A model generated the notes under the pieces. The model was not told the origin of the DNA and ran no database searches. It saw only the letters and a program-made list of their open reading frames with translations. Positions 4,980-29,200 of a stretch of DNA of 37,461 nucleotides are shown here, one piece after another (position 1 is the first letter of the stretch; each line of letters begins with the position of its first letter). This DNA comes from a virus. Both the position numbers and the translations under genes were made by a program. The stretch lies in IMG/VR virus record IMGVR_UViG_3300032267_000657, positions 1 through 37,461 of that record. One strand, given 5' to 3'.

Positions 4980-5056
4980 AGAAGAGATTTAATCTCATGC
5001 TCCATTGCATACCAGTGGGGCAGAGGATGCAATCTCGCATCTTTTAAGGAGGCTCT

Positions 5057-5347
5057 ATGTGGAAATTAATCAATAGAACAGAGGCAGTGCAACGGCACTC
5101 TCACTTCGTTTTTGTTCGTGGCGATGACGTTGCAATCGCTGACCATTCACTCAACAAGGTGACCGATCCCGCATCGACAGAGGACGGTCTCTTACTGTGG
5201 GACGGCAAGCTTGGCACTATCCGCACCAATTACGTTTTACTCAGGCTCAAAGGGGATGGTGAGTCCTTTGTTTCTGTAAGCACCCTGACTGCCTATCGCA
5301 TCCAACAGGCTACAGGCAAGCAAGTAATCCCTGATCCATCAAACTAA
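5057..5347 (+). CDS. First gene of the early operon, unknown function
   Basis: A 96-residue soluble protein (MWKLINRTEAVQRHSHFVFV...). The sequence suggests a small beta-rich fold (FVFVRGDDVAIADHSL, TNYVLLRLKGDGESFVSVSTL). I recognise no family. It has the operon's characteristic AAGGAGGCTCT Shine-Dalgarno and directly follows the structured leader, so it may be strongly expressed early after infection. The next gene starts 9 nt downstream with the same type of ribosome-binding site. Confidence 0.7.
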   Translation: MWKLINRTEAVQRHSHFVFVRGDDVAIADHSLNKVTDPASTEDGLLLWDGKLGTIRTNYVLLRLKGDGESFVSVSTLTAYRIQQATGKQVIPDPSN

Positions 5348-5356
5348 GGAGGCTTT

Positions 5357-5551
5357 ATGCGTAATTTTGTTGAATTTTTGGTAGTCGGTTTATCCCTCGC
5401 AGTATTCGTCATTTTCCTGACAGTGTTCTTACTGGATTGGACAGGCGGTTGCGGTGAGGTTTTTGAATATGCGAACGGCACATTGCATCAAGGTGATTGT
5501 GTCGGACGTGACGTGTTTTTCTCAATTTTCCAAAGGGTTTTTAATCTATGA
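5357..5551 (+). CDS. Small single-pass membrane protein
   Basis: A 64-residue protein with one clear hydrophobic helix (FLVVGLSLAVFVIFLTVFLL, about residues 7-26). A short extracytoplasmic or periplasmic-type segment with two cysteines (GGCGEVF, GDCVGRD) and a hydrophobic C-terminus follow. The SD is AAGGAGGCTTT. Its TGA overlaps the ATG of the SprT-like gene (ATGA). It lies in the early region and away from late genes, so I would not call it a holin; an early membrane effector (for example superinfection exclusion) is possible but unproven. Confidence 0.65.
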   Translation: MRNFVEFLVVGLSLAVFVIFLTVFLLDWTGGCGEVFEYANGTLHQGDCVGRDVFFSIFQRVFNL

Positions 5552-6111: not shown

Positions 6112-6141
6112 TTTTTTTAACTTTTTTAAAGAGGCTCAATC

Positions 6142-7587
6142 GTGAATATCGATAACATCAAATCAGTTTTATCTTTCGTATCAGTTGGTCGTTTAAATGC
6201 CGTCAACGTCAAGTACGGCAACGGTGTCGTGTTTGCCAACAAGCGTGATGCAGTTGACTGCGTTGCGCAGTTGGTCATGGATCGCAAGGTGGAGATGACT
6301 GAGGTCAAGACCATCGCCCCTTTGACTGAAGTACCGACACCCGCTCCAGTAGGCGGTGGATCGATGGCTATCAACCATCTCAAGCAAGACCTACAAGCAA
6401 TGAATGATGACCTACTGGCGGTGGCTAACACCGCTAAGTCTGCAATGACTGAGGCACGGGACATCGACAATCGTCTTATCGCTTTGCATGACGAACTCCA
6501 AAGCAAGCTTGGCTCGATTGCAGTTGACGAGTCTGCCGTTCGCAGAGAGGTTGCCAAGGTGTTTGCATCATTCAAAAAGGTAACCCCTGTAGCTGAGTTG
6601 GAGACCATTGCATCGTCTATGCCTGTCGTGACTCGCAAGAAAGCCTGTGAAGTATTTGATGGCGAGTTGTTCTACGAGGTGGACGGTGAGCGTGTTGATT
6701 TCAGCAACCTTGAGATTGACGTGTGGGATGACGTTCATGCGCCTAAGCGTGTAAACGACTACATCTTTCAGCCACGTCATTTGCACTTTGCTTTGATCGC
6801 ACTGGCTAACAAACTGCCACACAATATGTGGCTTGGCGGTGAGAGATCAACTGGTAAGTCGGAGTTCGTAACGCAGTTGGCATCACGTCTTGGACGTAGG
6901 TTGTTCCGCATCAACTTCGATGAGGCAATCGAGAGAGCGGAGTTCATCGGTGGCAATACGATCGAGAGCGGTGACGTGGTGTGGAAAGAGGGCATCGTGA
7001 CTCAAGCCATCCAGTACACAGGCGCTCTAGTTCTGTTTGATGAGATCAGCTTTGCTCGTTCACAGAACCTTGCGGTATTGCACTCAGTAACCGAACCTAA
7101 TCCGAACCGTTCGATCACCATTGCTGAGACAGGCAAGCGCATTCCAGTAGCTGATCACGTTGCGTTTTTTGTTGCTGACAATACCCTTGGGTACGGTGAC
7201 TCATCAGGCAATTTTGCGGGTACACGGGACATGAACACTGCGTTCATTGATCGCTTTAGTTTTACCTTGAAGTTTAATTATTTGAAACCCGCAGAAGAGA
7301 TCAAGGTAATCGTTAGTCGTACTGGCATCGCCAAAGAAGTTGCAACAATGCTTGTGCAGTTTGCAAACTCTGCCCGTGAGAAAGCACAGGCGGGTGTGTT
7401 GACTCAGCCACCAAGCTTGCGTTCATTGTTTGCTTGGGCTGATGCAATCAAGGGCGGTCTGCCTGTCTCGTTTGCGTTTGAGAATGCAATCATCAACAAG
7501 TTCCCACCTGACTGCGAGGCTGAATTGCGTGGCATCTATACCGCAATGATTGATGCCAAGAAGTTGAAGTCTTACTTAACCAAATAA
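6142..7587 (+). CDS. MoxR/CobS-type AAA+ ATPase
   Basis: A 481-residue protein with a GTG start preceded by AAAGAGGCTCAAT. The N-terminal ~60 residues are a small domain, then a helical region (about 75-170). The AAA+ core starts near 215 and has Walker A GGERSTGKS (about 232-240), Walker B LVLFDEIS (about 296-303), a sensor-1-like FFVADNTLGYG, and an arginine-containing FIDRFSF. The spacing and 'TGKSEF..qLA..LGR.lfrinfd' pattern match CobS/MoxR ATPases, which work with VWA-domain partners to remodel proteins or insert metals. Those partners are encoded next (7599-9439). I see no other cobalamin gene, so a role in cobalt chelation is doubtful. Confidence 0.88.
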   Translation: MNIDNIKSVLSFVSVGRLNAVNVKYGNGVVFANKRDAVDCVAQLVMDRKVEMTEVKTIAPLTEVPTPAPVGGGSMAINHLKQDLQAMNDDLLAVANTAKSAMTEARDIDNRLIALHDELQSKLGSIAVDESAVRREVAKVFASFKKVTPVAELETIASSMPVVTRKKACEVFDGELFYEVDGERVDFSNLEIDVWDDVHAPKRVNDYIFQPRHLHFALIALANKLPHNMWLGGERSTGKSEFVTQLASRLGRRLFRINFDEAIERAEFIGGNTIESGDVVWKEGIVTQAIQYTGALVLFDEISFARSQNLAVLHSVTEPNPNRSITIAETGKRIPVADHVAFFVADNTLGYGDSSGNFAGTRDMNTAFIDRFSFTLKFNYLKPAEEIKVIVSRTGIAKEVATMLVQFANSAREKAQAGVLTQPPSLRSLFAWADAIKGGLPVSFAFENAIINKFPPDCEAELRGIYTAMIDAKKLKSYLTK

Positions 7588-7598
7588 TCGGAGGCTAT

Positions 7599-8612
7599 AT
7601 GCTAGGCATGGACGTTAAACGTGGTGTGACCGCTACTTGTGAGCGGGTGTTTACTGCAAGTGGTAATCGCTTTGAAGACCTCAAGGTTCTTTGGGGTGGC
7701 AAGACTGCTTGCATTAATTATTCCAAGGGTGTTGACGGTGTTCGTGCAACCATCGTGTTGCCCAACATTGATGAGTCTAAGCCTGTACCGCAGACTCAAT
7801 TCAACAACGCTATCGGGTTCGTGTTGCATGAGTTGGGTCATGCATGGTTCACCACCAACAAGCCTTGGGATGATGCAGTCAAGGAGCATAAGGACGGTAA
7901 GTACATCGGCTCTATGATCAACGGTCTTGAAGATCCTCGCATCGAGCAGTGTGTGATCGACTCAGGCTACGCACCGAATTCAGCACCGTTGTTTAATGCG
8001 CTGATCAATTCGATGATAGCTAAGAACGGTTACCCCAAGGAGTTGACCAAGCAGTCGTTGCCGTTCATCCTGTGCATTGAGGGTAGACGTTTAAACGGCT
8101 ATACAATCTCAGCCCCTGACTTGGTGTCGACATCGATCTACGCACTTGAGATCAACCGTGCATTGCAGTTGGCTAAGAATGCTAAGTCGACTAGGGAGAT
8201 CGTGACCATCTCTGAGAATCTCTACGATGAGTTGTTCCCAGTAGCTGAAGAGGGCGAGTCAGAAGAGGGTGACGAACCTACTGAGGGCGGTAAGCCTCCG
8301 ACTGAGGGTGACTTCCCTATGCCCAAGGATGAGCCTAGTGAGGGCGGTGAGCCTACTGAGGGTGACGGTGAGGGTGACAAGGGTGAGCCTGATGGCGAGG
8401 GTGAAACTAAGGATGGTGAGGGTGATAGCGGTAAGCCATCCGATCCACCGAAAGAACCACTCAAGGATGACGGCACTGCGCCACTGGATGTCGAGCCTAA
8501 TGAGTTCATCAAGCGCTCGATGCGTGAGTTTGATTGTCGTGCTGACCGTAGGGGTTACGGCAGACCAACACTCAAGTCGATTGAAGTAATTGAAATTAAT
8601 GATTGGAGTTAA
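7599..8612 (+). CDS. HExxH metallopeptidase-like protein with acidic tail (CobT/DUF2201-N-like)
   Basis: A 337-residue protein. The N-terminal part has HELGHAW (H77, E78, H81), followed by a NGLEDPRIEQCVI segment whose acidic residues could complete a metal site. This is the layout of the putative metallopeptidase half of DUF2201/CobT-like proteins, which normally carry a VWA domain on the same chain. Residues about 213-305 are a low-complexity Glu/Gly/Asp/Pro linker, like the acidic region of CobT. The VWA half is the next gene, after only 2 nt. The SD is GGAGGCT. The protein probably docks the AAA+ ATPase and VWA subunits; whether the HExxH is catalytic is unknown. Confidence 0.75.
   Translation: MLGMDVKRGVTATCERVFTASGNRFEDLKVLWGGKTACINYSKGVDGVRATIVLPNIDESKPVPQTQFNNAIGFVLHELGHAWFTTNKPWDDAVKEHKDGKYIGSMINGLEDPRIEQCVIDSGYAPNSAPLFNALINSMIAKNGYPKELTKQSLPFILCIEGRRLNGYTISAPDLVSTSIYALEINRALQLAKNAKSTREIVTISENLYDELFPVAEEGESEEGDEPTEGGKPPTEGDFPMPKDEPSEGGEPTEGDGEGDKGEPDGEGETKDGEGDSGKPSDPPKEPLKDDGTAPLDVEPNEFIKRSMREFDCRADRRGYGRPTLKSIEVIEINDWS
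8240..8475 (+). repeat. GAGGGTGA-rich low-complexity tract coding the acidic linker
   Basis: Units such as GAGGGTGA and GAGGGCGG recur many times and encode repeated EGD, EGG and GEPTEGD motifs. Such a tract can expand and contract by slippage, so linker length is probably variable between relatives. Confidence 0.7.
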
Positions 8613-8614
8613 TC

Positions 8615-9439
8615 GTGGGTAAATTAAAAGACATCAAGTTGGACAAGGCAGAGGGCATCGCTCACTTCGAGCGTGAGTTCAGAACCAATCAAATCGGGAT
8701 GGGCGCTACTAAAGCTAACCTGATTCGCTTACTCAAGTCAGTTGACTTGGTTGGTTGGTCTAGTCATGAAGAGTCGGGTCGCTTGGATCGCAAAGCTTTC
8801 TCTCGCTTTGCTTGCGGTAGCGCCAACATCTTCAGCAAGCGCCAGTACGTTGAGGCTGAGTCTTCTGCGGTCTCAATACTGGTTGATTGCTCAGGCTCTA
8901 TGGGCTTAGGCAATCGTATGCAAGTGACTGAGTCGGTGGTCATCCAGTTGGTCAAGATCCTTGACAAGGCTGACGTGTCTTACCGTGTGTTCGGGTTCGA
9001 TAGTCCTGATGGCACATACCCTCGCAAGGTTGCGAGTGACGAGGGTACGGCAGTTGAGGTGCAACTTGAAGAGGTTACGTTCTACCCATTTAAACACTGG
9101 AACGAATCACTGCAACGTGCGTTACCTAAGCTTGGTCAGATCCACAAGTTTCACTTGCGTGAGAACCCTGATTACTCTGCGGTAATGCTCTCGCTTGAGG
9201 ATCTCAAGACACGTCCTGAGAAACGCAAGGTGATGTTCTTCTTGACTGACTCGTTGTCCCCTGACGTTAACCATATGCGCCACCTTGATACCGTTGCAGA
9301 AAAGCTTGGCATCAAGTTGATTGCAATCGGCATCCAGTCTGACAAAGTTCTCCAATGCCACAAGCATTCAGTCGCAGTAGAGAACCTTGCAGAGATGGGT
9401 AGCGCATCGTTCAACAAGTTGTTAAAAGAGTTGCAGTAA
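8615..9439 (+). CDS. VWA-domain protein (CobT/DUF2201 C-terminal-like)
   Basis: A 274-residue protein. I chose the GTG at 8615 because GGAG lies 6 nt upstream; a TTG at 8603 would add four residues. The VWA fold shows the MIDAS motif DCSGSMG (first Asp at residue 91), and FFLTDSLSPD supplies the later MIDAS aspartate. VWA proteins of this kind bind a MoxR/CobS ATPase ring. The gene sits 2 nt after the metallopeptidase-like gene, so together they look like a CobT/DUF2201 protein split in two. A role in protein remodelling is inferred. Confidence 0.85.
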   Translation: MGKLKDIKLDKAEGIAHFEREFRTNQIGMGATKANLIRLLKSVDLVGWSSHEESGRLDRKAFSRFACGSANIFSKRQYVEAESSAVSILVDCSGSMGLGNRMQVTESVVIQLVKILDKADVSYRVFGFDSPDGTYPRKVASDEGTAVEVQLEEVTFYPFKHWNESLQRALPKLGQIHKFHLRENPDYSAVMLSLEDLKTRPEKRKVMFFLTDSLSPDVNHMRHLDTVAEKLGIKLIAIGIQSDKVLQCHKHSVAVENLAEMGSASFNKLLKELQ

Positions 9440-9480: not shown

Positions 9481-9639
9481 ATGAAATCCGAATACAAGCG
9501 CTATACCTGTGTTGGCACTGGCGGTATCAATTGTCGTTGTTGTTGCAATCGTGGTGGTAAGCCTGTCATTAAACGTCAAGCTAAAAGACGTTACGCACAG
9601 GCAGTCAATAAATTAATCAAATCTGAAAGTGAGGCTTAA
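9481..9639 (+). CDS. Tiny basic Cys-rich protein
   Basis: A 52-residue protein (MKSEYKRYTCVGTGGINCRC... SESEA) with four cysteines in residues 10-21 (C10, then CRCCC-type packing), followed by a basic helix (KRQAKRRYAQAVNKLIK). It resembles a one-knuckle zinc binder with a nucleic-acid-binding tail. AAAGG precedes the ATG, and the stop lies 2 nt before the next ATG. The family is unknown. Confidence 0.6.
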   Translation: MKSEYKRYTCVGTGGINCRCCCNRGGKPVIKRQAKRRYAQAVNKLIKSESEA

Positions 9640-9641
9640 TC

Positions 9642-9890
9642 ATGGCAATCATTCGTGTATCAATACTTGTCCAAGTTGACACAGAAGAGAGCGCAGAAGA
9701 CATTCGCAAAGAGTTACTTGATGCGGTGTCTCACGAAGTTAAAAACAATCCTGATCAATTCACAATCTTGGAGTTAGATGAAGACGATGAAAATGACTGG
9801 GAAGAAATTGAGTTGCATGAGGGTTGTGTTGATTGGGAAGTTGATCCAGTACACCCATCCTTTGATCCAGTATTTAAAAACGAAAGGTAA
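9642..9890 (+). CDS. Small acidic protein
   Basis: An 82-residue, strongly acidic protein (ELDEDDENDWEEIELHEG...). The N-terminal IIRVSILVQVDTEESAEDIR suggests a beta-alpha start of a small ferredoxin-like fold. No family is recognised. The SD region is GTGAGGCTTAATC, the same extended ribosome-binding motif as other early genes. Very acidic small early proteins are often DNA mimics or inhibitors in phages, but this is only a possibility here. Confidence 0.65.
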   Translation: MAIIRVSILVQVDTEESAEDIRKELLDAVSHEVKNNPDQFTILELDEDDENDWEEIELHEGCVDWEVDPVHPSFDPVFKNER

Positions 9891-10967: not shown

Positions 10968-12668
10968 TCAAAACTGATCCTTGGTCTCAAAGTAAGTTCC
11001 AGTGGTTTTGTTATATCCAAGGGATGTCTCGCCTTGTGTTCCAACCCATCTGAACCGACACTTCCAAACCGCAATCTCCACGTCATTAGTCTTGGTGCGA
11101 TGCACCGTGATACCGCAGTCTGCCTTAGCCCACCATGCCATCGAACCTGAGATCGCCATACCGTCAGGACGTGGCAGATCCATGCCTGAGCGTGTGATCT
11201 TTGATGGGTGGGCAACAAACCATATGTGGACACCGTAAGCCTTAGCAAAGGTTTGCATCCTCGTCAGCATGGACGAGATGAATTCATGCTCTGCCTGTCC
11301 GCCTTTGTTCTCAATGTAATTGTAAGGGTCGATAACCAAACCCCTGATCCCTGTTCTCGCTACGGCAACCTTGGCACGTTCCAATATGGAATCGATGGTC
11401 GAGGGTTCTGCTCCCTCTGAATCCATAAACATAAAATGATTTTCTACCCAATCGAATGCCTCGGTCTTATCCTCATCGGTCATGCGATTAGATCCCTCAA
11501 AGAACCGTTTTTCCTTGTAAATTTCCATGAGTCTAGAGATGTGAATTTCGGGCTGATTCTCAAATGAACACAGGGCAAACTTCCAATCGTGCGCCTTGGC
11601 TAAGTTGACCATCAGCTGATCCACAAAGTTAGACTTACCGCAAGATGGATAACCTGTAACAATGCTGAGTTGTCCTTGGGCAATCGTGTAAATCTCATCC
11701 ACGTTGGAGTAGCCTGTCGATACGCCTTTGCCCGTACCCTTTCCCCATAGGTCGTTTAAACGCTCAGAGAACTTGCTGGCGGACGACAAGCCCGCAACTG
11801 GGTACGGCTCGGCAGTGTCGATAATCTGTTTAACTAAGTCTGCGCCTTCGGCAAGAAATGCCTCGTTTAAATCCTTGAAACTAAACTTGGCAATACGGCA
11901 CTTGTCCTTGCCAATCCTCCTCGCCAACTCTTCAGCCAATGCTTGACCCGCAGTGTCTGTGTCTGTCGCAATCGTGACGTACGGTGCTTTCTCCAGTACA
12001 TCGAACGCATTCCATACAAAGCTAAACCGCTTGTCTTCGGATGCATCAACTCTTCCATCTGAAACTTTGATTGGCGCACCGCTTGGAACTGATAACACAT
12101 TTTCTATACCGCATTCCATGAGTGTGAGCGCATCGATTTCACCCTCAACGATAACCACTGGCTTGGTGGGATCTACCTTATCAATGCCAAAGAAATCCTG
12201 TGAACCGCCTGTGTCTTGAGTAAAGTCCTTTGATTCAATACTCCGATACTTTGCGGAAATAAACTTACCGTTTTTAAAATACGGGAAACCAATCGCATCG
12301 GTCTTTTTATTTAAACGCTGAAAGTATTTCTCAGCGGGAAACAACTTCATCGCATCTGCCGTTTGTTCTGATATACCCCGTGTCTTTAAAAAATCGTAAT
12401 GTTGTGGTTGTAGTTTTGTTTCTTCAAATTTTCTAATTGGAATCACGTTTTGCTCCATGCGGGGTATAGGTTTAAAGTTGTTTGTTTTGAACGGCACAAA
12501 GCCTTTGGTCTGACAATGGTGGCAGTGGTATAGCCAACCATTCGATGTGGCATCGATGCTCAATTCTTTTATGTTGTATTTTTTGCGTTCGGGCGAACAC
12601 TCAGGACACACAACCCTGTCGTGTACAGGGACGTGCAAAGATGATACGAAATCTGCTACTGCATTCAA
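10968..12668 (-). CDS. DNA primase-helicase (T7 gp4/Twinkle type)
   Basis: A 566-residue replication protein. It starts with a zinc ribbon (CPEC at 21-24, CHHC at 49-52). A TOPRIM primase core follows, with VVIVEGEIDA (E175) and ATDTDTAG (D236, D238). A RecA-like hexameric helicase domain comes next, with Walker A GYPSCGKSN (about 339-347), an ALCSFENQ motif, Walker B GLVIDPYNYI and a WFVAHPSK motif near the end. It should unwind the fork and prime lagging-strand synthesis. The start is TTG at 12668, 5 nt after a strong AGGAGG; no in-frame ATG fits. No DNA polymerase is encoded in the window, so it probably works with the host polymerase. One GTTTAAAC site (11754) lies inside. Confidence 0.93.
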   Translation of the reverse strand: MNAVADFVSSLHVPVHDRVVCPECSPERKKYNIKELSIDATSNGWLYHCHHCQTKGFVPFKTNNFKPIPRMEQNVIPIRKFEETKLQPQHYDFLKTRGISEQTADAMKLFPAEKYFQRLNKKTDAIGFPYFKNGKFISAKYRSIESKDFTQDTGGSQDFFGIDKVDPTKPVVIVEGEIDALTLMECGIENVLSVPSGAPIKVSDGRVDASEDKRFSFVWNAFDVLEKAPYVTIATDTDTAGQALAEELARRIGKDKCRIAKFSFKDLNEAFLAEGADLVKQIIDTAEPYPVAGLSSASKFSERLNDLWGKGTGKGVSTGYSNVDEIYTIAQGQLSIVTGYPSCGKSNFVDQLMVNLAKAHDWKFALCSFENQPEIHISRLMEIYKEKRFFEGSNRMTDEDKTEAFDWVENHFMFMDSEGAEPSTIDSILERAKVAVARTGIRGLVIDPYNYIENKGGQAEHEFISSMLTRMQTFAKAYGVHIWFVAHPSKITRSGMDLPRPDGMAISGSMAWWAKADCGITVHRTKTNDVEIAVWKCRFRWVGTQGETSLGYNKTTGTYFETKDQF

Positions 12669-12685
12669 GTGAGCCTCCTAGGTTG

Positions 12686-12961: not shown

Positions 12962-13351
12962 AGAAAATTCTCTCTTATATATACAACGTAGTACTTACGT
13001 ATCCTATCTGCCCTTTGGAGAGGGCAGTACTCGCCTTAAACTAGCCTCAGCGAGTATCCTTTACATCCTCTGCCCAATGGGTTCGGTTGACTCGAAAGAC
13101 TTTTCGTGCAACGGACTCTTTCTTCGCCATCCGTTTCTGATCTCTAATGCACTAACCGTAGTATCAGCAATTCAATTTCGCCCCTACCGTTTTTCATCGT
13201 CAAGCGAAACAGGAATTCATCTTAATGAAATTCACATGAACTTTGCAAGTGTTTTCGGTGCAAGTGCGGGTAAATAATTAGGAACTCTGTTTAAACAAGT
13301 AGCTCATGTAGCTCATCAGCCAGGCTGCGAAGCGGCTGAGCCAGGCTGCGT
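12962..13351 (-). other. Noncoding leader upstream of HNH and primase-helicase, with two hairpins
   Basis: I see no convincing gene. Two adjacent hairpins stand out: CTGCCCT/AGGGCAG at 13008-13027 and TACTCGC/GCGAGTA at 13028-13056, each with a 7-bp stem. On the minus strand they lie in the 5' leader of the HNH-primase transcript, 45 nt or more before the HNH start. The second loop shows GAGGCTAG on that strand. A 27-codon minus-strand frame (MAKKESVARKVFRVN...) ends in this area, and a plus-strand frame covers 12945-13277; neither has good support. A weak minus promoter may lie near 13215-13250. Confidence 0.4.
13300..13350. repeat. Short direct repeats beside the minus-strand terminator
   Basis: TAGCTCAT(G/C) occurs twice in tandem (13300-13308, 13309-13317). 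CCAGGCTGCG occurs at 13320-13329 and 13341-13350. A GTTTAAAC site (13289-13296) adjoins them. The function is unknown; they could be operators for the leftward leader. Confidence 0.45.
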
Positions 13352-13381
13352 AAAAAAAGAGGGCGCTGTTTAAACGCCCTC
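13352..13381 (-). terminator. Minus-strand terminator built around a GTTTAAAC palindrome
   Basis: Read on the minus strand, GAGGGCG pairs with CGCCCTC (7 bp), and seven Ts follow directly. The loop contains TTTAAAC, part of the GTTTAAAC site at 13368-13375. It would stop leftward transcription coming from the RusA gene. Confidence 0.75.
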
Positions 13382-13455
13382 AAGGTACTTCCTCACGAGA
13401 AGATAGAATCATTTTGCACTTGTTAAAAAAAATATCAAGCAGAACGTTTCTGTTG

Positions 13456-13484
13456 TTGACAAATATTTTTATGGTGTTTAATAT
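13456..13484 (+). promoter_or_regulatory. Near-consensus sigma70 promoter driving a small RNA
   Basis: TTGACA (13456-13461), a 17-nt spacer, then TAATAT (13479-13484). This is a perfect -35, a 5/6 -10 and ideal spacing, the best promoter I see in the window. The expected start is A13491. No gene follows; the only thing downstream is a terminator 50-75 nt further on. Confidence 0.8.
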
Positions 13485-13490
13485 GCTGAC

Positions 13491-13565
13491 AGATGACTGC
13501 GAATTGAGCCTCCATCATTGAGACCAGTAGGTCGGAGAGCCACCCCTAAAAAGGTGGCTTTTTTT
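13491..13565 (+). ncRNA. Predicted ~75-nt phage small RNA with anti-Shine-Dalgarno loop
   Basis: The unit is bounded by a near-consensus promoter and a Rho-independent terminator and has no coding capacity. Three hairpins can be drawn. GATGA (13492-13496) pairs with TCATT (13515-13519), exposing an 18-nt loop. GACC-AGTA-GGTC is at 13522-13533. The terminator stem closes the 3' end. The loop carries AATTGAGCCTCC (13502-13513), the exact antisense of GGAGGCTCAATT. That string matches the extended ribosome-binding sites of many genes here, including those at 6142, 12668, 13971, 14857, 15775 and 9642. A trans-acting translational regulator is inferred. A 27-codon frame on the opposite strand lacks an SD. 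Confidence 0.65.
13538..13565 (+). terminator. Rho-independent terminator of the predicted small RNA
   Basis: AGCCACC pairs with GGTGGCT (7 bp) around an A-rich loop, followed by a T-run to 13565. It abuts the stop codon of the convergent RusA gene. Confidence 0.85.
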
Positions 13566-13923
13566 ATTGCCGTGCCGATACTTCTATCTCGCACCTAGGG
13601 TTTACCCTATCTACCCCCATCCAGTAAATATGCTTTTCCTTGACCTGACGGTCGTTTTTATATGCCACCTCCTGTAGCAAATCGAGGATCAAACTTTCAT
13701 CCAAATCGGGTCTGCGGGATGCGTACCAAATGCGAATCGTTACCACCACATCAACTTCAAAAACTTCGCTGGGAGCTATGACACATTGCTGTTTAAACAT
13801 CTTAGCGTAACCCAACGCCTTCGCAGACTTGATAAACATTGGCTTTCCACGGACGTACACCATTTTGCGTGAATTTGCTTTACTGGCGGGTTCACCAAAT
13901 ATTTTTAATGAAAGTGTTTGCAT
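13564..13923 (-). CDS. rusA: RusA-like Holliday junction resolvase
   Basis: A 119-residue protein that matches RusA in length and pattern. It has an N-terminal FGEPASKANSRK, then RRPDLDESLILDLLQ with aspartates at 73 and 75, and YKNDRQV with D91. E. coli RusA uses Asp70, Asp72 and Asp91, so the catalytic triad appears intact. It resolves four-way and branched DNA made during recombination and before packaging, and fits the ERF/SSB/nuclease set encoded just to the right. It is transcribed alone on the minus strand, divergent from that operon. One GTTTAAAC site (13791, MFKQ) lies inside. Confidence 0.9.
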   Translation of the reverse strand: MQTLSLKIFGEPASKANSRKMVYVRGKPMFIKSAKALGYAKMFKQQCVIAPSEVFEVDVVVTIRIWYASRRPDLDESLILDLLQEVAYKNDRQVKEKHIYWMGVDRVNPRCEIEVSARQ

Positions 13924-13946: not shown

Positions 13947-13970
13947 CTAGGTTCGTATACAGGAGGCTTA

Positions 13971-14876
13971 ATGAAAATTACGAATAACTTTAATGTACCA
14001 GAGACTCTACTCGCATTAGCAAATAGAGACGATTACAACAAGGGTGAGGCTGACTTCTCAGTCACTGAGATCATATCTCCACCACGCATTCAAAGACTGC
14101 GCAGAAAGCACTGGAATGAGATGACTCAGGACGTTGCCGATATGCTATGGATGCTTATGGGTACTGCCTTGCACGTTGTGGCAGAACGTTCTGAGATAGC
14201 GGGTCACACTAACGAGGAACGTCTTATGGTTGGCATCGATGATGTCATCCTCTCAGGTGCTATCGATCTACAAAAGAATGACAAGGACGGCACGGTCATT
14301 ACTGATTACAAATTTACATCCGCATGGGCTTTGATGAATGACAAGCCTGAGTGGGAGCAACAACAAAACATTTACAAATATTTGGTTGAGCGTGTCAAAA
14401 GACAACCAGTAAAAAAGCTAGAGATCTGTGCGCTCATTCGTGATTGGTCTCGTAGAGATGCCATGAATAAGCCAAGCTATCCACAAGCACCGATCCAAGT
14501 ATTGAACATTCCGATTTGGACTCATGACCGTGTCGAGGCTTTCATTAGAGAACGCATCAACTTGCACCGTGATTCCAAAGTCAATGCGGATTGGAACGAG
14601 GAACTCCCCTTATGCACCGAGGAAGAGCGGTGGGTGCGTGAAACTAAGTATGCAGTAAAAAAAGAGGGTCGTAAGACTGCCGTTCGGGTCTTCGATACCG
14701 AGGAGGAGGCACAGGATTTATTGAAAGATATGCCTGTGAAAGATAAAGGATTCGTAGAAATCCGAAAAGGTGAGGCAGTACGTTGCACTGGCAATTTCTG
14801 CGGTGTCAATCAGTGGTGTACTCAATATCAAGCAACATTAACTCAGGAGGTTCAAGATGAAATCGGAAGTAATTAA
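13971..14876 (+). CDS. Cas4/RecB-like PD-(D/E)XK nuclease
   Basis: A 301-residue protein with the RecB-family nuclease signature: GTALHVVAE (H68), SGAIDL (D99), VITDYKFTSA (D112, K114) and a QQQNIYKYL helix. The C-terminus has CTGNFCGVNQWC, and an upstream Cys lies in LPLCTEEE. This pattern resembles the Cys set that holds an iron-sulfur cluster in Cas4/AddB-type nucleases. It would process DNA ends, probably making single strands for the ERF annealase encoded downstream. The SD is CAGGAGGCTTA. The 3' end overlaps the next gene by 20 nt. The iron-sulfur cluster is inference. Confidence 0.85.
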   Translation: MKITNNFNVPETLLALANRDDYNKGEADFSVTEIISPPRIQRLRRKHWNEMTQDVADMLWMLMGTALHVVAERSEIAGHTNEERLMVGIDDVILSGAIDLQKNDKDGTVITDYKFTSAWALMNDKPEWEQQQNIYKYLVERVKRQPVKKLEICALIRDWSRRDAMNKPSYPQAPIQVLNIPIWTHDRVEAFIRERINLHRDSKVNADWNEELPLCTEEERWVRETKYAVKKEGRKTAVRVFDTEEEAQDLLKDMPVKDKGFVEIRKGEAVRCTGNFCGVNQWCTQYQATLTQEVQDEIGSN

Positions 14877-15630: not shown

Positions 15631-15788
15631 GCAGTGAAGAGTTAGCAAGTGGATTGCAGAACATGGTGACGATGCATTTATCGGACAGAGTTTTATGCGA
15701 TCAATCAGCAATACGGTTGTTGGTATTGGAAACAGAAATTAAATTTTTACAAAAGCAATTACAGGAGGTTCAAAGTGAAAGTATATAA
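15624..15788 (+). CDS. Tiny coiled-coil protein
   Basis: A 54-residue protein (MVSSEELASGLQNMVTMHLS... QSESI). The C-terminal half is a likely coiled coil (LLVLETEIKFLQKQLQEVQ). The ATG overlaps the previous stop (ATGGTAA), and the 3' end contains the Shine-Dalgarno and start of the ERF gene. A real gene is likely from the packing; the function is unknown. Confidence 0.5.
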   Translation: MVSSEELASGLQNMVTMHLSDRVLCDQSAIRLLVLETEIKFLQKQLQEVQSESI

Positions 15789-20241: not shown

Positions 20242-23200
20242 CTATTCGTAATCTTTCCTTAAGATCCTCACCCTAGCCGTTAACCTTAGCTGGGCATCGT
20301 GGATCTTATCTATAGCTTCACGTTTCTCATCTGCGGTCATTGTCTTAGATGCGTTGATCATTTTGCCAGCTTGATTTAACTGTTTCATAGTCTTATCTAG
20401 CGTACCAACATAGCCTTTCAACGCATACAGTTTCTTGTTCTCTTCCAAGTATGTCTTGAGATCCTCGCCATTACCAGTACGCTGTAGGGTATTGACCGTT
20501 TGAACAACGGTGTCAACCTCTTGCTTGAGATCATAGTAAGCTGAAACAGTACCCATATCACCAGCAAAAAACCGCTTGATTACAGGCAGTTGCTCCATAC
20601 GCTTAGTCGCTTTAACTGGATCGCCCTCTTGAGTCAAAGCAGAATCAATCAGCATCATTGCATAAGTACCCATCGTGCCTGTGTAGCCACGGATGAGGTT
20701 ATCAATCTTCTGCGGTGAGTACTCTAGTTCTCTGCCTAATTTTTTAGCAAGTTCAGACGTGCCAGAACCAAACTGGAATTGCGGTGCAAGACCCTCAACA
20801 CCACGACCAATGATTGGTTCGCCTGTGAAGAATGAGTGGTTCGTAGCGTTCTCAACCATAGGTAAGACGGCTTGAGGTATAGGATTAAACGACAGAGTAC
20901 TCATTGCATTACGCAGTAGGGACTCACGTAGGTCTTTGCCTGTGTCTGTGCCAAAGGAATACTCAAGCGCTCTCTCAGGGAGAACCTTAAAGAGAACACC
21001 CAACTCGAAAGGAATCGGGAAACGGAACGGCTTATCACCAACTTGGATAGCTGGGATGATCCAATAGTTATCACGTTCTTCCTTAGACAGTCTCTTGTAA
21101 TCCTCATCATCGGAAACCATAGCCCAGTACATGACGGACGTGCCGAGCAGAACCATTGAACGGAACATGAATGCTTTTTGAATGGTGTCTTTGTTCTGCA
21201 TAGCAGTCTTTCCAAAGCCTGTGCGGTACAGAACGTCAAGACCTTGGACACGTGCGTTGAAGAACGGAATCATTGCAGAAACAATGCGAATGAGGGCAGA
21301 GTTACCTTTGCGTGAGAAGTTTAAAACTTCCATTGCTTGGTAGAACGCTTCGGCTTCCGAACCAGTTCTCTCTAAGGTACGCTTGTAAACCTCGGCACGG
21401 GTCGCCATGTCTGATGCGTGAGATCCTTTTTCGAGCATATCCCAAAACGCAGTGATCGGGAGTAGTGATTTCTCGCCAACGGTGCGGGTTCCGCTACGTT
21501 TACGCAGTTCTTTCTCAACTTGTTTAGACGTGGACTTTACGTCACCAGCAAAATCATAGCCAGTCAGACCAGACCTAGCCAGAGCATTTGCTTCTGGGGA
21601 TTGGTTTGCCAGCTCTTTACCAAACTGTTTAAACGAGTCAACCAGCGGCTTCATGTCAGTTCCGCTCGTGATCCACGCTTGCATTGAGTCACGACCTAAG
21701 TTGGCAAGGATGAATCCTGGATCTTTGGTAACGAAATTACGGAGCAAGTTGGCGGGAGCAGACAAGAAATCCATAAACGGGAGCTGTGGTAGGTTTAAAC
21801 CTTTAAGAGATTCAACCAACAGCGGATCAGCTACACGGTAGTAGACGGTCATTCCCTTTTCTTTTACCGTTACAACGTCAGAACCTGACTGAGAACTAGG
21901 TAATCTTTCTCCCAATCCAAAGTCGACAACGTCACGGATAACCCTACGAGCCGCCTCGTTCTTCATACCAGCTTCAATTGCTGCACGTGCGTTACGAACG
22001 ATAGTCTCCATGAAATCATCCAATGGAGCTTCAGAACCCTTAAGTTTCTTGGGTTTAGCTACACCAGCGATTGAGGAGAAGACCTTTGGTCCTGCCGTTT
22101 TCTCGCCATCTAGCTGACGATAGAATGGGATGTAATCCCAATTTTCAGTCCATGACTTAGCTTCTTGCGGGGATATTACCCCAGTGTCCATCATGTACTT
22201 AACTAGACCTGAGTTGTACTTCTGATACTCATCGAACACCGTAGCAAACTCAGGGAATTGCGACTCTAATTCTTTGCCGTAGGCGATGTCTTCCTTGGTG
22301 AAAGTCTTCTCACGACCTTCCGCATCAAGTCTTCTACCCCTACGAGTACCAGCATAGTACTGGAATGTTTGGAATATGTATGGGTCGTTGTACTTCATCA
22401 AAGGCTCAAGAATCGGGATCAGACCTTTAACCTTGCCATCCATATCGCTAACGTATGTGTAGCCCTTGTCAAAGACAGGGATACCATCTTTAAACGAGGA
22501 TGCGGCTACTCCCGCTGCACGGTCAGATTGCAACGCAGCTGCGATTGCTGAGTTCTCAGCCAGCAGTTGATCGCCACCCATCTTCTCGCCTCTTAAACGA
22601 GAGAGTTGCTCAATGGACTCATACTTATTAATTAAGCTTTGACGTAACTGTGTCATAGCCGTTGGAGAAATGGCATCCATTAAACGCTCTACAAATCCAG
22701 CTTGCTTGCGTCTGGTTGTAGTAGAACCAATACGCTCGTTTAAACGGTCAGACAGCTGGCTGCGCAGGGAGAACAACGGCATACCCTCGCCCACTTTTTC
22801 ACGGATCTTCTCTGTAATACTAAAACCAGTTTGCGCATTCGATGTTGCTGGGTCATTAGCACGTAACCAGTCTTTTGCATCGTCATAAGTCATTGGCTCA
22901 GTAGTTACTCTTTCGCCAGTTTTTGCATCTTGAACATAAGCGTTTTCATTTGATAAATCTGAAACAACGGTATATTTAAACTTTATGTTTGACGGAACCA
23001 TTACACGAACTGGAACAATCACTTTTTCTAAGTTACCGCCACCAATTTTTTTCAATACATCATTAGCTACTTGTGGAAGAATATTGTCGTAGTAGTTAAT
23101 CATTCCCCTACCGCCAGCTTTTATGTCCATGCCAGATAATTCTTTATTGTTGCGGTATCCACGACCTTGATACTTGTCAAAAATATCCCGTGTTAAGCCG

Positions 23201-26200
23201 CTAACGTCACGCAATGTTCCAGAATAACCACCAGGATCGTCACGCATTAACTCCACAACCCTTTCAATTTCTCCGTCTTCGTAAACGCCCAGTTCTCCAC
23301 GTTTAGCTTTTTCTTCCCATGTAGAAATTGCTTTATCTATTTGCTCTTTGGCTTGCTCTTTTGTAGGAGATGAATCAACACCATCTTTAACTTTAACGGC
23401 AATTTCTTTTCCAAATGTTGCCTCTATCTCTTCTAAAGTTTGATCGTCTCTATTAAAAATAACGCTATCGTTTTTGCTTGCATCAATATTGTAAGTGCCG
23501 TCATCATTTTTACTGTAAACAATCTTGTCAAGATGTATGCTCAAATCATAACGATCAGCAGATTGTGTGCCGTTAATAAACGCTACTTTGTCGTATCCGT
23601 TTTCAGATGCATAAGCAATGATGCGTTTTAATGCAAGACCTGTCCAAGCTTTGGTGTCTTTAAATGGAGCATTTGGAACTCCAAGCATTTCGGTAGATAA
23701 ATTATTATACAAATTTTCCCACTCGTCATATCTTCCAACATCACGTGCTAAATTTTCCAATTTCATAAAATTGTTAGTGGCTGCGTATTGAGTGGCTGCT
23801 TTTTCAGCAAATTCATCAATTGGCATATTTTTTAAAGCTTTGCGTAATTCAGGCTCTGATTCGTATTCTTTTCTATAAAAATCCACGTATTTATCATGGG
23901 ATTGTTTTTTTATTTCAACAATAAAATCGTTATACTCTTTTTCAGCATTTTTATTTATTTTATAGCCTTGCTTGCGACCAGACTGATGCCAGTCAGACTG
24001 AATTTCTTCAATGAATAAAACTTTAGCGCCTTTACGATCTTTGCGATCATTCATGCGAATGTGGGCTAAAATGTTTTCCTCTTTCCAATGCGATGATTTA
24101 TATTTTGGTGAGTCTGGTGAGGCATCTTGAGTTGGTGCATACTCTTTGATTGCATCTTTAGCTTCTTTAGCGTAATACCAAATTTTGTCTGTTACACCGC
24201 TACCAGTTTTTGCATATTCATCAATTGCGCTTGAATATAACTTATAACCTTTGTCCTCTGGAGAAAAAACAACTTCCCAATTAGATGGAACTTGTTTTGC
24301 TGGTAATGTAATCAACATTTCCTGATAGTTAGTACCACCATCTAACTGATAGTCTTGATACTTTGTTTCGTTCTTTTCTTCACTCTTGTTTACTTCCTCA
24401 AGACGTACACCGCCCTGTTGCAAGTAATTAAGAATTTCTTCTTTAGAAACCTTCTTATCGCCTTGGAGATCAAGCCAATCGTTAATACCGCTAAACTGTA
24501 GCTCTTCTGATTTAACACCCATCTTAGATGCATTAGATGTTAACCATGCTTTGACTTGCGGGGCTTTACCAAAGATGCGGTCAGGAGTAGCCTCAATACC
24601 TTTTTCTAACTGAGAGTAGTACCATGCGTTTGGCGCACGGATTGAATACTTAATGCCTTTTTCGGCTAGTTCCTGTACTGTTCCCTCGTAATTAATTGGA
24701 GTGTTGTGATTAAGAACAACCATCATTCCCATGTCTGGAATGGCATAGCCATCGTAACCAGCATCAACAATTGAGCTTTCAAACTTATTTGAATCCTTAC
24801 CAGCGGCTTCGTACAACTCGCTCATGCGTTTGCTTGGAGCAAGGATGTTGTCAAACTTTTGCTTGTGTACGTAATTACCTAAGCCAGCTTCTTTAGGTTG
24901 CATTCTGCCTGTGACGGCATTCTCAATATAGAAGTACACACGGTTTTTAATGCGTGGATCATTGGTCTCGTATAAACGAGTAGCTTCTGCGCCTCTGATT
25001 CCAGAGCCGTACTTGTTACCGTTTAAAGTGGTTTGTGGTGCATTGCTATAGTGAATAGCATCAAAACTTACCGCATCGGCTTGCTTAGTGCCAAGGACGA
25101 TTCCCCCGCCACCTTCGCTGGGTCTTTCGGTAGATTCTGTAGGTCTAAATTTTGTAAAGGGAAACTCTTTGCCTTCGGATATGGACTTGGCTTGTTCTGC
25201 GGAACCTTCATCGTATTCATCTATCATTACTCCATCTGATTTTGTTGGTGGCTGATTGTACTCTGGGTCATATACCATGAATACAACGTCAGGCTTACCG
25301 TTGCTAAAGTCTGCAAATACTTTCTTATCCCAACCCTCTGCATATTGTTCGTCAAATTTTAAACGGGCAACAGTTTTAAATCCGTTGTTGTAATACAACT
25401 TTGGCAAAATTGTATCGTATGCATCAAGCCTTCTTCCACCCTCTTGAACTGCCAACTGCATGATTGCGTTAACACCGCCAATATGGGGCGACTGTGAGAA
25501 TACTGAAACAATGTCATCACCTTTTAAAGCAAACCCAGCCTTGCCGTCATTGGTAAGGAACATACGCATACCAGCGTAATCTTCTGCTGGATATACTTGC
25601 ACTGCCGCACCAAATGGATTGCTTTCTTTAGCGGTAGATATTGAGTCTTCAAATAATGCCGCTCCATTAGAACTTAATTCGTAAAACGTTGGCGCAGTTA
25701 CATCAGCATTTTTTAATGCATTTTTAAACTTAATGACAGGTTTAAATTCTGCAATTGCATTTTGTCCTAGAATCCGAAAGCCGTTGCCATTTTTTCCGCT
25801 AGTTCCCTTGTAAGCGTTGGGTGATCCCGCATTGCGCTCTCTATAGGATCGTATGATTCCTCTGGTGATGAAGTGGCTGCGTTCTTTGCCAGCAAAGCCG
25901 ACATTTCTTCCTTCGGAGCCAACTTGATTTGTGCGTTCTCCATCATTTCGTTGTATTGCTCTTGTTCTGTCCGCATATTCTTTCTCCGTATCGGCTGTTA
26001 CAGTTTTGATCTTTGACTCAGGTATGCCGTTTAAACGTGCTAGTTTTGCAGCAGCGTTTGCATAGTCTGGTGCTTCGTCATCTTTGTATCCTTCACTAAT
26101 CTTACTCTCTTTTGCAATGTCATACAAACGTCTTTCGGGATACCACAACAGTGCCTGTAAATCAGACATTGTCATATTTGGATAGCCACGTTCACGCACT

Positions 26201-29200
26201 TCATCCAATATGCCTGAGAAGACTTCACGAATGTAGTTACGCTCGGCAGGACCAGCTGGCGCTTCTTTCTGTGCATCAATGTAGTCAACAAGACCATTAG
26301 AAGTCTTGCGCATTGTTCGACCAATAGCACTCTTATTAAAGAATGTGCGGTTTAAAGGTTTTTGTGAAGCCTTGTTAACGGCAGTAGCTAGTGCATCAAC
26401 GGCATCGGTACTTGCTAAGTCTGCTTCTGTAATGGTCTTGCCAGTAATTCTTTCAAAGCGCTCACGGCTTGCTTTGTTTGCTGGTCGGAGCAATCCCTTG
26501 ATTAAACGTTCCATCTCGCCACGTTTGCTATCAATCAGACGTGTGTTGTCATCAATTAAAGAACCAGTCCAACGACCCCAAGTTCTCATTAACCAACGAT
26601 CCATTGTCAACTGGTCAAAGATACCGTTTAAATTAGAGAAGAATCCATTGCCAATTTTTGGTCCGAGAATGGATGCACCTAATACTTTGGTATCGGCAAA
26701 CTCACCGCCTACTTCAAGGTTTGTCAGGCTCTCAATCTGCTTGACAGTAAACTCGGTAGCCATGAACTTACGCATATCATCAATGCCGTACTTGTCGATC
26801 ATTGAATTAAATAGCTCTAAGCTATTATTAATAGCTTTTTGTGTCTCACCAGCCTTGAGGTTGGTAGGCATCTTGCCTGTTTTCTTGTAAATATTGTAGG
26901 CTTGCTCGGCTAATTCAAAGTTCTTATCAACCTTCATGCCGTTAGATGTAACTGCTAAAGCCCAAGTAAATGCAAATTTGGCATCGGGATCAGTCTTAAT
27001 CTCTGGATGCATCAAGCTAACAATGTTTAAAGCTTTAGTTACAGTCTTGTCGTACCAACCTACCGCATTTGCGTTAGTCTTTAATGCGTAAATGGCATCG
27101 TCTACACCAGCTTTAACTAGGTAGTCAGTAGTCTCATCTTCTGTTGAGGCAAGATCAATGCCTTCTTTTTCTGCGGCAGCTAAGACTTGATCTTGAATAG
27201 CTACCTTTAAATCACGATTGCGTTTGAAATCACTGTCACGGGCAAAGTTAAGAATGTTTTCAAGGGAAGAAGTTTGACGTAAAGAAGCTTTTGGTTTTTC
27301 TTTAGGCTTAAGTTCTGGGTACTTTGCAAACACTTCTTCCTGTGGAAGGGTGTATACGTCTAGCATTTGCTGGGCATCTTTGCGTTTGTCAAACTCTTGA
27401 ATTAAGCGTCCATCAGATATTCTTCTTAACTCGTAACTTACTTGATCAGTAGTTCTGCCACGAGGCTGGGCTTTACGCACCACCTCGTAATCACCTCTTG
27501 GTTTTATTGAAAGCTTAGTCTCATCAGACACAGCTTCCTTGGCTGGTTGCTTCTTGCCTTCTTCAATGCTGGTAAAGATGTCATCAGTAGTTTGGAAACC
27601 AAGCTTGTTAAAGGCATTGCGTAAAGCCTCGAACATCTTGTTTAAACGCACCCAGATATTGCCGATCATGCCAGGTGGAAGGCTGCCTACCTTAAAGTCT
27701 TTAAACGCTTCGGCAATAGCTTCTTCCTGAATGTATGGCTCAAACCCAATAAGGTTTCCGTTCTCTTCCAAGTACCGTGCTTTGTACGCATCGTACAAAT
27801 TAGCGTCTTTAATGTATTTCTGTATCCATTCGGACTTAGCCTTGTTCTCAAGGACTTTCCATTCTTGTGCAGTAAACGCACCCAACTCTTTTAAGGCATG
27901 GATAGACTCATGGCGCAACGTTCCCATTGGGTTCTTAGAATCCAAAGCAATTGCCATGACTTGCTTAATGTAGTAACCGTCAGCCGTTCCGTCTTCAATA
28001 CTATTAAGTACACGTAGGGCTACCTTTTCTAAACCAAAACGTTTTAACGCTGGCAATAGGGTCTGGCGCAGTTTCTCAAGGTTGTCATGGACTTCCTTGC
28101 TATAGATGCCAAGGCTTTCCAAACGCTCTTTAGAACCCTTCAAGCCCTTGGTTGTAGTAATCGCTATGCCACGATCAGTCTCAATGGATTGACGGTCATT
28201 TAGCTCTTTCTGAGCTAGGTCTGCGTAACGTTTAACCCGCCCAGTTTGTTTTTGAGCGCCAGCAGAATCAATGATTTGTTGCAGTGTCTTGTCATCTAGA
28301 CGGCTAATACCGTAGGCTTCTGCCTGTTCTTCGCTATCAAACTTAACTTGTGGCTGATCCTTCTCGTAGAAAGTAAAACTATCCTTGGCTACGGGTTTCA
28401 TTTCCAGTGGTGCTACACGCACTGGCTCAGAAAATGTCTGTTGTTCTTCACGTAGATTCTTAATAGTTTGCTGTGTAACTTGGTTCTGACCATAGTAATT
28501 GGCTGACTTAATAAAGAAAGGATTGCCTTGGTCGTATCCTAGGGCTTGATCATTAACCAACTCGGCATCCCGTTTAGCCATTTCTGACTCAAGCCTTTTA
28601 ATTGTTTTTTCTATTTTTACAATTTCTTCTTGACGCTTTTGTTCATAGACAGCCGCATTCTTCTCAGCTTCTTCTACTGTTTCCATCGTACTGATGACAC
28701 GGTTACCAGCACGTACTTCGTATGCTGATGGGGTCTCTCCCTGTTTAAACGTCTCTTTACGAATATCCATGCCGCCAGGCAGCGGTGTCATTGCTGTGGC
28801 TGGTTTAAACGTTTCAATCGTGCTGCCAGTGGAACTTGCCTTAACGTTCCTCTCTAGGTCGCCATTCCTGACAGCTTCATCCAGAATACGTTGCTGGTCT
28901 CTCTCTTGCTTGAGACCGCTATATTTTTCAATCAGTTTAAGAACGCTACTTCTGCCGTTCTCTTGATTGCCCATTTCTTTAAATTCTTTGGACAAGCCTT
29001 TGAGCGTATCGTTATATTGGTCAGGTGTGTAGTGCTTGGCATTGGTAATACCAGCCTCAAGGATCTGGGTTTCTTCGCCAGCTTTGAGGTTTCTAATAGC
29101 CTGAGCAACGGCAAAACGTTGCGGAGGAGACATCGTATTAAGGTCTTCAGATCCAGTAACCCTAGCAAGGAAGTCTCTAAATCCTTGGGTTCTTGTGTCT

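Follow-up and report, generated by a model that had tools for sequence, protein, structure and literature searches.

A predicted phage antisense RNA whose loop coevolves with the ribosome-binding sites of unlinked early genes

Introduction

The switch from early to late gene expression in phages is usually attributed to transcription factors or to proteins such as RegA. In phage T4, RegA competes with the ribosome for the translation initiation regions of about 30 mRNAs, and RegB cuts GGAG within early Shine–Dalgarno (SD) sequences (PMC3014915). The alpha-r14/NfeR1 ‘cuckoo’ sRNAs display an ultraconserved anti-SD motif in hairpin loops on variable stems, and silence by covering the ribosome-binding site (RBS) (PMC10746234). 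Phages carry trans-acting sRNAs of their own, such as VpdS of vibriophage VP882 and PreS of lambda, which belong to the lytic cycle and of which VpdS affects both phage and host mRNAs, while OOP, sar and aQ are small antisense RNAs of phages, each transcribed from its own promoter, according to excerpts of a 2025 review of phage sRNAs (PMC12197685).

Here we describe a predicted RNA of about 75 nt encoded by a viral DNA of 37 461 nt (IMG/VR record IMGVR_UViG_3300032267_000657), the whole of which is referred to as the window. It recalls T4 RegA in that a single phage regulator would address the initiation sites of many mRNAs, with coverage of early initiation sites seen here as complementarity and hence as a prediction; RegA, however, is a protein and RegB a nuclease, whereas this is a 75 nt base-pairing RNA with a shared, coevolving address. 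With alpha-r14/NfeR1 it has in common an anti-SD loop displayed on sequence-variable stems. Those RNAs are encoded by alphaproteobacterial chromosomes, carry three CCUCCUCCC loops and have broad metabolic targets, whereas the RNA described here is phage-borne and has one extended loop, which covaries with targets in the same genome; instead of three hairpins with CCUCCUCCC loops we found one antisense loop (AGCCUCC) and a second hairpin with the loop AGUA. For VpdS and PreS, the excerpts of the 2025 review describe neither a common RBS address nor covariation of loop and RBS, and the target given for PreS is host dnaN. OOP, sar and aQ act, by the same account, on the gene that they overlap, whereas the present RNA touches only the stop codon of a RusA-like resolvase gene and has many putative targets several kilobases off, up to about 8.4 kb away. 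A literature search of partial coverage found no phage sRNA that has a set of RBSs of the same phage as its targets, and the excerpts of the review name none (PMC12197685).

Computation shows that this RNA gene is conserved, that its product would be structured, and that the loop and the start sites of unlinked genes have coevolved. We consider it highly probable, judging from sequence comparison, that its product is a trans-acting antisense sRNA that pairs with about nine early and replication RBSs and lowers translation of the whole set.

The sRNA locus

The locus occupies the + strand of the region that separates the primase/HNH block from the divergent exonuclease operon, and has the following features.

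13456–13484, +, σ70-type promoter of the sRNA (−35 TTGACA at 13456–13461, spacer 17, −10 TAATAT at 13479–13484)
13491–13565, +, predicted antisense sRNA of about 75 nt, with its start placed from the promoter and its end from the U tract
13492–13518, +, hairpin 1, displaying the antisense loop (predicted fold; arm-swap test in relatives)
13501–13513, +, antisense stretch GAAUUGAGCCUCC, in which all 34 aligned relatives share AGCC and the final CC; covaries with the RBSs
13522–13533, +, hairpin 2, GACC-AGUA-GGUC (predicted fold; stem replaced in relatives with pairing kept)
13534–13565, +, Rho-independent terminator (stem 13534–13563 plus U tract; six stem pairs with changes on both sides in relatives)
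13564–13923, −, RusA-like resolvase gene, running convergently towards the sRNA; a marker of the conserved slot, not itself a target

A preliminary description of this DNA had proposed a near-consensus promoter, an RNA of about 75 nt and a Rho-independent terminator with no gene between, and all of these elements were found in place. The promoter agrees with the consensus at 10 of 12 positions and is among the two best matches in 20 kb, although it is weak evidence by itself, since promoter-like sites across the same 20 kb region total fewer than in shuffled sequences. It lies 50 nt from the terminator stem; the U tract, which ends at 13565 and would give the RNA a U-rich tail, abuts the RusA stop codon, and there is no ORF in the sRNA. 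The terminator stem (13534–13563) is not among the sites listed by a simple terminator scan. Folding of the RNA (13491–13567) predicts three hairpins at −25.7 kcal mol−1, against −15.7±3.0 for shuffled sequences (z −3.4). The exposed 18 nt loop that had been proposed is borne out in so far as the antisense stretch is mostly unpaired with either a GAUG/CAUC or an AUGA/UCAU stem; the minimum-energy fold, which exposes the AAUUGAGCC part, is closed by GAUG/CAUC and so shifted by one register from the AUGA/UCAU stem of the original proposal.

No Rfam 15 family reaches its gathering threshold at the sRNA, where the best match is RcsR1 (22.7 bits against 60). The only family at threshold in the window is RF02932, the Betaproteobacteria-1 RNA, at 13090–13211 (−, 68 bits against a threshold of 49), between the primase/HNH block and the sRNA. 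This too is a structured RNA of the same intergenic region, but it differs from the sRNA in sequence, strand and structure. It was found beside the sRNA in seven of the eight relatives scanned, the eighth (L121) stopping just before that region, and this Rfam sRNA of unknown function is thus at home in these phages. A minus-strand terminator at 13381–13359 lies beyond the RusA gene, and a RusA transcript reading through to it (13359–13564, −) would be complementary to the sRNA over its whole length, GGAGGCUCAAUU included, and could serve as a sponge for it.

Relatives carrying the sRNA

Relatives were gathered by an exonuclease scan (80 contigs), a RusA scan (65) and a RusA profile search that added more. 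About 65 related contigs carry the sRNA next to the RusA gene, in the same slot; in 53 contigs, with 42 distinct sequences, it was located either where the RusA gene ends (3′) or upstream of the exonuclease. A covariance model built on 34 sRNA sequences also matches L159, 11 held-out contigs and L186, which is binned with an uncultured betaproteobacterium; a betaproteobacterial host is suggested. In L159 the RNA lies about 960 nt from RusA and has kept its loop. Matches to a DNA collection of cultured phages were confined to the methyltransferase gene, and the exonuclease, primase and RusA have distant homologues only. Planktothrix phage Pag-Yong1 has convergent genes directly after RusA, and the sRNA was not found there; the slot of L034 holds a terminator, with no matching RBS.

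The 34 aligned sRNAs have a mean column identity of 50 %, but the AGCC and final CC of the loop are invariant, as is its core CC(U/C)CC across relatives, and the loop is the most conserved part of the RNA. Of the 42 distinct relatives, 39 have a promoter at a similar distance that agrees with the consensus at 9 or more of the 12 positions (the mean is 9.95, compared with 7.34 for shuffled sequences). RNAalifold applied to a MAFFT alignment recovered the terminator only, because loop lengths vary, and hairpin 1 was therefore tested by swapping arms between relatives: pairing was 11.2 with an arm's own partner and 9.55±0.31 with swapped partners (maximum 10.62 in 500 swaps). The stem of hairpin 2 is replaced in relatives by GAUC-GAAA-GAUC, CACAC-UCCCCA-GUGUG, GACCUCCCACGGGUC, CAAACCCUAGCGUUUG and others, with pairing retained. 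Many relatives have an AACGTT element near the promoter; we do not claim it as an operator, since the window is rich in sequences resembling AGAACGTT (62, with 32 expected).

Putative target ribosome-binding sites

The 18 nt loop was hybridized to 41 gene starts obtained by simple gene calling. The nine strongest duplexes, with energies in kcal mol−1, are formed with the following RBSs.

5048–5056, +, GGAGGCUCU, 96-aa ORF at 5057 (−19.9)
5348–5356, +, GGAGGCUUU, 64-aa ORF at 5357 (−20.1)
6131–6141, +, GAGGCUCAAUC, CobS/MoxR-like AAA gene at 6142 (−20.5; orthologues covary in 32/32)
7590–7598, +, GGAGGCUAU, 337-aa ORF at 7599 (−17.3)
9631–9641, +, GAGGCUUAAUC, 82-aa ORF at 9642 (−18.1; orthologues follow their own loops)
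12670–12678, −, GGAGGCUCA, primase-helicase gene, 10968–12668 (−22.9; covaries in 60/60)
13962–13970, +, GGAGGCUUA, exonuclease gene (PD-(D/E)XK) at 13971 (−18.9)
14846–14855, +, GGAGGUUCAA, 257-aa ORF at 14857 (−17.5)
15764–15773, +, GGAGGUUCAA, Erf-like annealing protein gene at 15775 (−17.3; orthologue test, P=0.005)

These are the same nine complementarities that had been picked out by eye in the preliminary description, and each pairing proved correct when checked base by base. They rank in the order 12668, 6142, 5357, 5057, 13971, 9642, 14857, 7599 and 15775 (−22.9 to −17.3), followed by a gap to the tenth start at −13.1. The expectation that start regions would stand out from shuffled controls held for strength but not for number: loops shuffled with CCUCC fixed matched the top-nine energy sum in only 2 of 500 cases, whereas the count of gene starts below −12 kcal mol−1 was reached by 106 of 500 shuffles and does not discriminate. 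Loop duplexes below −12 kcal mol−1 are also formed by 286 of 2000 coding windows. Matches to GAATTGAGCCTCC with at most three mismatches number 17 (9.6 expected; 2 of 100 shuffles had as many), and GGAGGCT occurs nine times on the two strands of the window (3.1 expected), five times in RBSs, once as the sRNA complement and three times elsewhere.

Where it precedes genes the motif is in the sense orientation and at SD spacing, operon-internal genes included, and it is absent from the late, structural genes of the window. The late structural block contains a single ORF of 3445 aa (20242–30579, −) after a transglycosylase-like protein. A CobS-like AAA gene and a CobT-like VWA gene stand around the 337-aa ORF (6142–9439) with no cobalamin context, and probably encode a MoxR-type chaperone pair; the CobS gene is among the putative sRNA targets and the CobT gene is not.

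Covariation of loop and ribosome-binding sites

If the RNA pairs with these sites, loop and RBS should be conserved together, and relatives that had kept promoter and terminator but lost the complementarity would speak against it, as the preliminary description had pointed out. Joint conservation is strong at the primase and cobS genes, and no such loss was seen, the RBSs changing with the loop. The extension after GGAGG matches the loop of the same phage over 4.27 bases at the primase RBS (3.07 with shuffled loops, P=0.0002) and 4.65 bases at the cobS RBS (3.28, P=0.0002); for the orthologous RBSs of erf (P=0.005) and the exonuclease (P=0.03), too, the fit to the loop of the same phage exceeded that to shuffled loops. 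The non-targets cobT and g16409 have no usable extension and gave no signal in this test, and g7599, g5357 and g5548 did not pass the loop-swap test.

At the level of single bases, the base of the primase RBS that follows GGxGGCT is complementary to the loop in all 60 phages (A 18, T 36, C 6), a count conditional on the RBS holding GGCT and made up of 50 initial rows and ten held-out loci; the held-out primases, from contigs fetched afterwards, fit their own loop at base 3 in 10 of 10 cases. At the cobS RBS, base 3 is the complement of the loop in 32 of 32, on the same condition, and at the exonuclease RBS the fit is looser (31 of 50 exact). Parsimony assigns seven changes to the loop and seven to the primase RBS. 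Independent contrasts on the tree are few (state T, 5 of 5 concordant, sign test 0.06), and formal phylogenetic significance is therefore limited, though all observed changes agree. Across 13 contigs, own loops match 70 gene starts and foreign loops 34.4. In the 12 contigs other than G021, 58 of the 59 own-loop matches fall in the early block, at most 11 kb from the sRNA. Orthologues of the 82-aa ORF in L143, L141 and L142 have the RBSs GAGGCUUAAUA and GAGGCUUAGAU, in step with their loops. Deviations compatible with wobble pairing outnumber incompatible transitions mildly (43 against 27), which we set aside as too weak to be proof of RNA pairing.

The locus thus combines its own promoter and Rho-independent terminator, with no ORF, and an exposed seed that is complementary to unlinked RBSs and conserved with them, as trans-acting sRNAs do; on these sequence features the predicted RNA is classed as a trans-acting antisense sRNA of a new variety. 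Many such RNAs, though not all, depend on Hfq or another chaperone, and the predicted RNA has a U-rich tail.

Switches and losses of the code word

In one clade of nine, the GGGGG clade, the loop is UUAAGCCCCC and the RBSs are GAGGGGCUUAA (primase), AGGAGGGCUUAA (exonuclease) and AGGGGCUUAA (cobS), loop and sites having both moved to CCCCC/GGGG. The divergent phage G025 uses the code word AUCUCC/GGAGAGAAAAAUG, which reaches into the start codon: the RNA in its slot contains ...UUUCAUUUUUAUCUCCUCG..., with the loop CAUUUUUAUCUCC, its RBSs are AGGAGAGAAAAAUG and AGGAGAGAGAAAUG, and at the exonuclease start 16 of 17 positions pair by hand count, through the start codon. Reading the complement of this RNA as the RBS of a minus-strand gene was rejected, as the frame stops after seven codons. 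In G022 the sRNA has been lost between a promoter remnant and RusA, and the exonuclease (GGAGGACUA) and cobS (AGGAGAAUC) RBSs have lost the extension; its sister G023 retains both the sRNA and the RBS extension (GGAGGCUUU), although its primase RBS, GGAGGAUCU, does not fit the loop despite the presence of the sRNA. For an L168-type loop, AUUAGCC, the matching RBS would be GGAGGCUAA. We lean slightly towards a phage-wide RNA regulon, an RNA counterpart of RegA, in which a shared RBS code word drifts and is now and then replaced wholesale (GGAGGCUUAA, GGGGGCUUAA, GGAGAGAAAAAUG) while pairing is kept, and rising sRNA dosage shuts the set off.

Proposed mechanism and alternatives

We infer both transcription of the sRNA and repression by pairing. 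Hairpin 1 would display 12–13 nt complementary to a shared address, namely the SD core and the next two to six bases (GGAGGCUYAA), at about nine early and replication gene starts, the predicted set comprising the primase-helicase, the exonuclease, Erf, the CobS-like AAA protein and small ORFs. Pairing would cover the RBS and block 30S binding, so that translation of the set would fall, probably with mRNA decay afterwards. Ribosome occlusion appears the likeliest mechanism, given that in established sRNA biology pairing over the SD sequence and start codon blocks initiation (NfeR1 on ntrB; PMC10746234). The sRNA may serve to end the production of early replication proteins or to set its level, for instance when replication multiplies the copies of the sRNA gene.

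Pairing does not of itself give the sign of regulation, and the RNA might instead stabilize the mRNAs, or these might serve as sponges that free a host target, sponges being known in bacteria (PMC12559287). We think this unlikely: the SD sequence lies within the pairing, as does the start codon in G025, and pairing at such positions is established to act by occlusion (NfeR1 on ntrB; PMC10746234). It is quite improbable that the RNA is a generic anti-SD mimic, lowering the use of any strong SD sequence, host mRNAs included, with no specific phage set: the invariant CC(U/C)CC is indeed the anti-SD core, and 286 of 2000 coding windows give duplexes below −12 kcal mol−1, but the extension past the core covaries with particular genes, and one clade has exchanged CCUCC for CCCCC, which pairs more poorly with a canonical SD sequence. 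A phage protein that binds GGAGGCTYAA-like DNA sites as operators at early genes and near RusA, with changes in its specificity accounting for the covariation, would also be expected to change all copies in a genome jointly, and the weakness of the wobble asymmetry (43 against 27) suits it. We nevertheless give it very little credence, since in the sRNA the motif is antisense and sits in the loop of a hairpin whose arms covary, about 10–20 nt past the predicted start of transcription and ahead of a terminator, whereas in genes it is sense, at SD spacing and also inside operons, and since in G025 complementarity extends through the start codon. That there is no sRNA at all is scarcely credible. 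On this reading the promoter and terminator would be part of a leader, or would provide RusA with a convergent antisense or a terminator, and chance would account for the complementarity; an RNA end at the RusA stop codon and a terminator abutting that gene would suit it, but the L159 copy has kept its loop about 960 nt from RusA, and the loop is the most conserved part and covaries in trans.

If repression by pairing with a common RBS word is indeed what this locus brings about, a 75 nt RNA would constitute a minimal, portable regulon for the whole early set, and would offer a clear example from nature of a pairing code that a trans antisense RNA and its numerous targets share and alter jointly. 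The shared word would make the controlled genes predictable from sequence alone, and testable without phage culture.

Further loci

Possible further pairs of loop and RBS code words lie beside RusA in L247 and L230 (AGUCUCUCUCCC; CAUCUUUUCUUCC), both of them ambiguous, L247 being a short contig and the complement in L230 being also a plausible RBS of an opposite-strand gene. In the divergent phage G024 (25222–25313) the RNA is apparently inverted beside RusA, with the loop GGUUUAGCCUCCGG and the RBSs GGAGGCUA. The terminator stems of L154 (G011), L164, L186 and L236 contain GCCUCC and a near-complement, which amounts to a second copy of the address within the sRNA.
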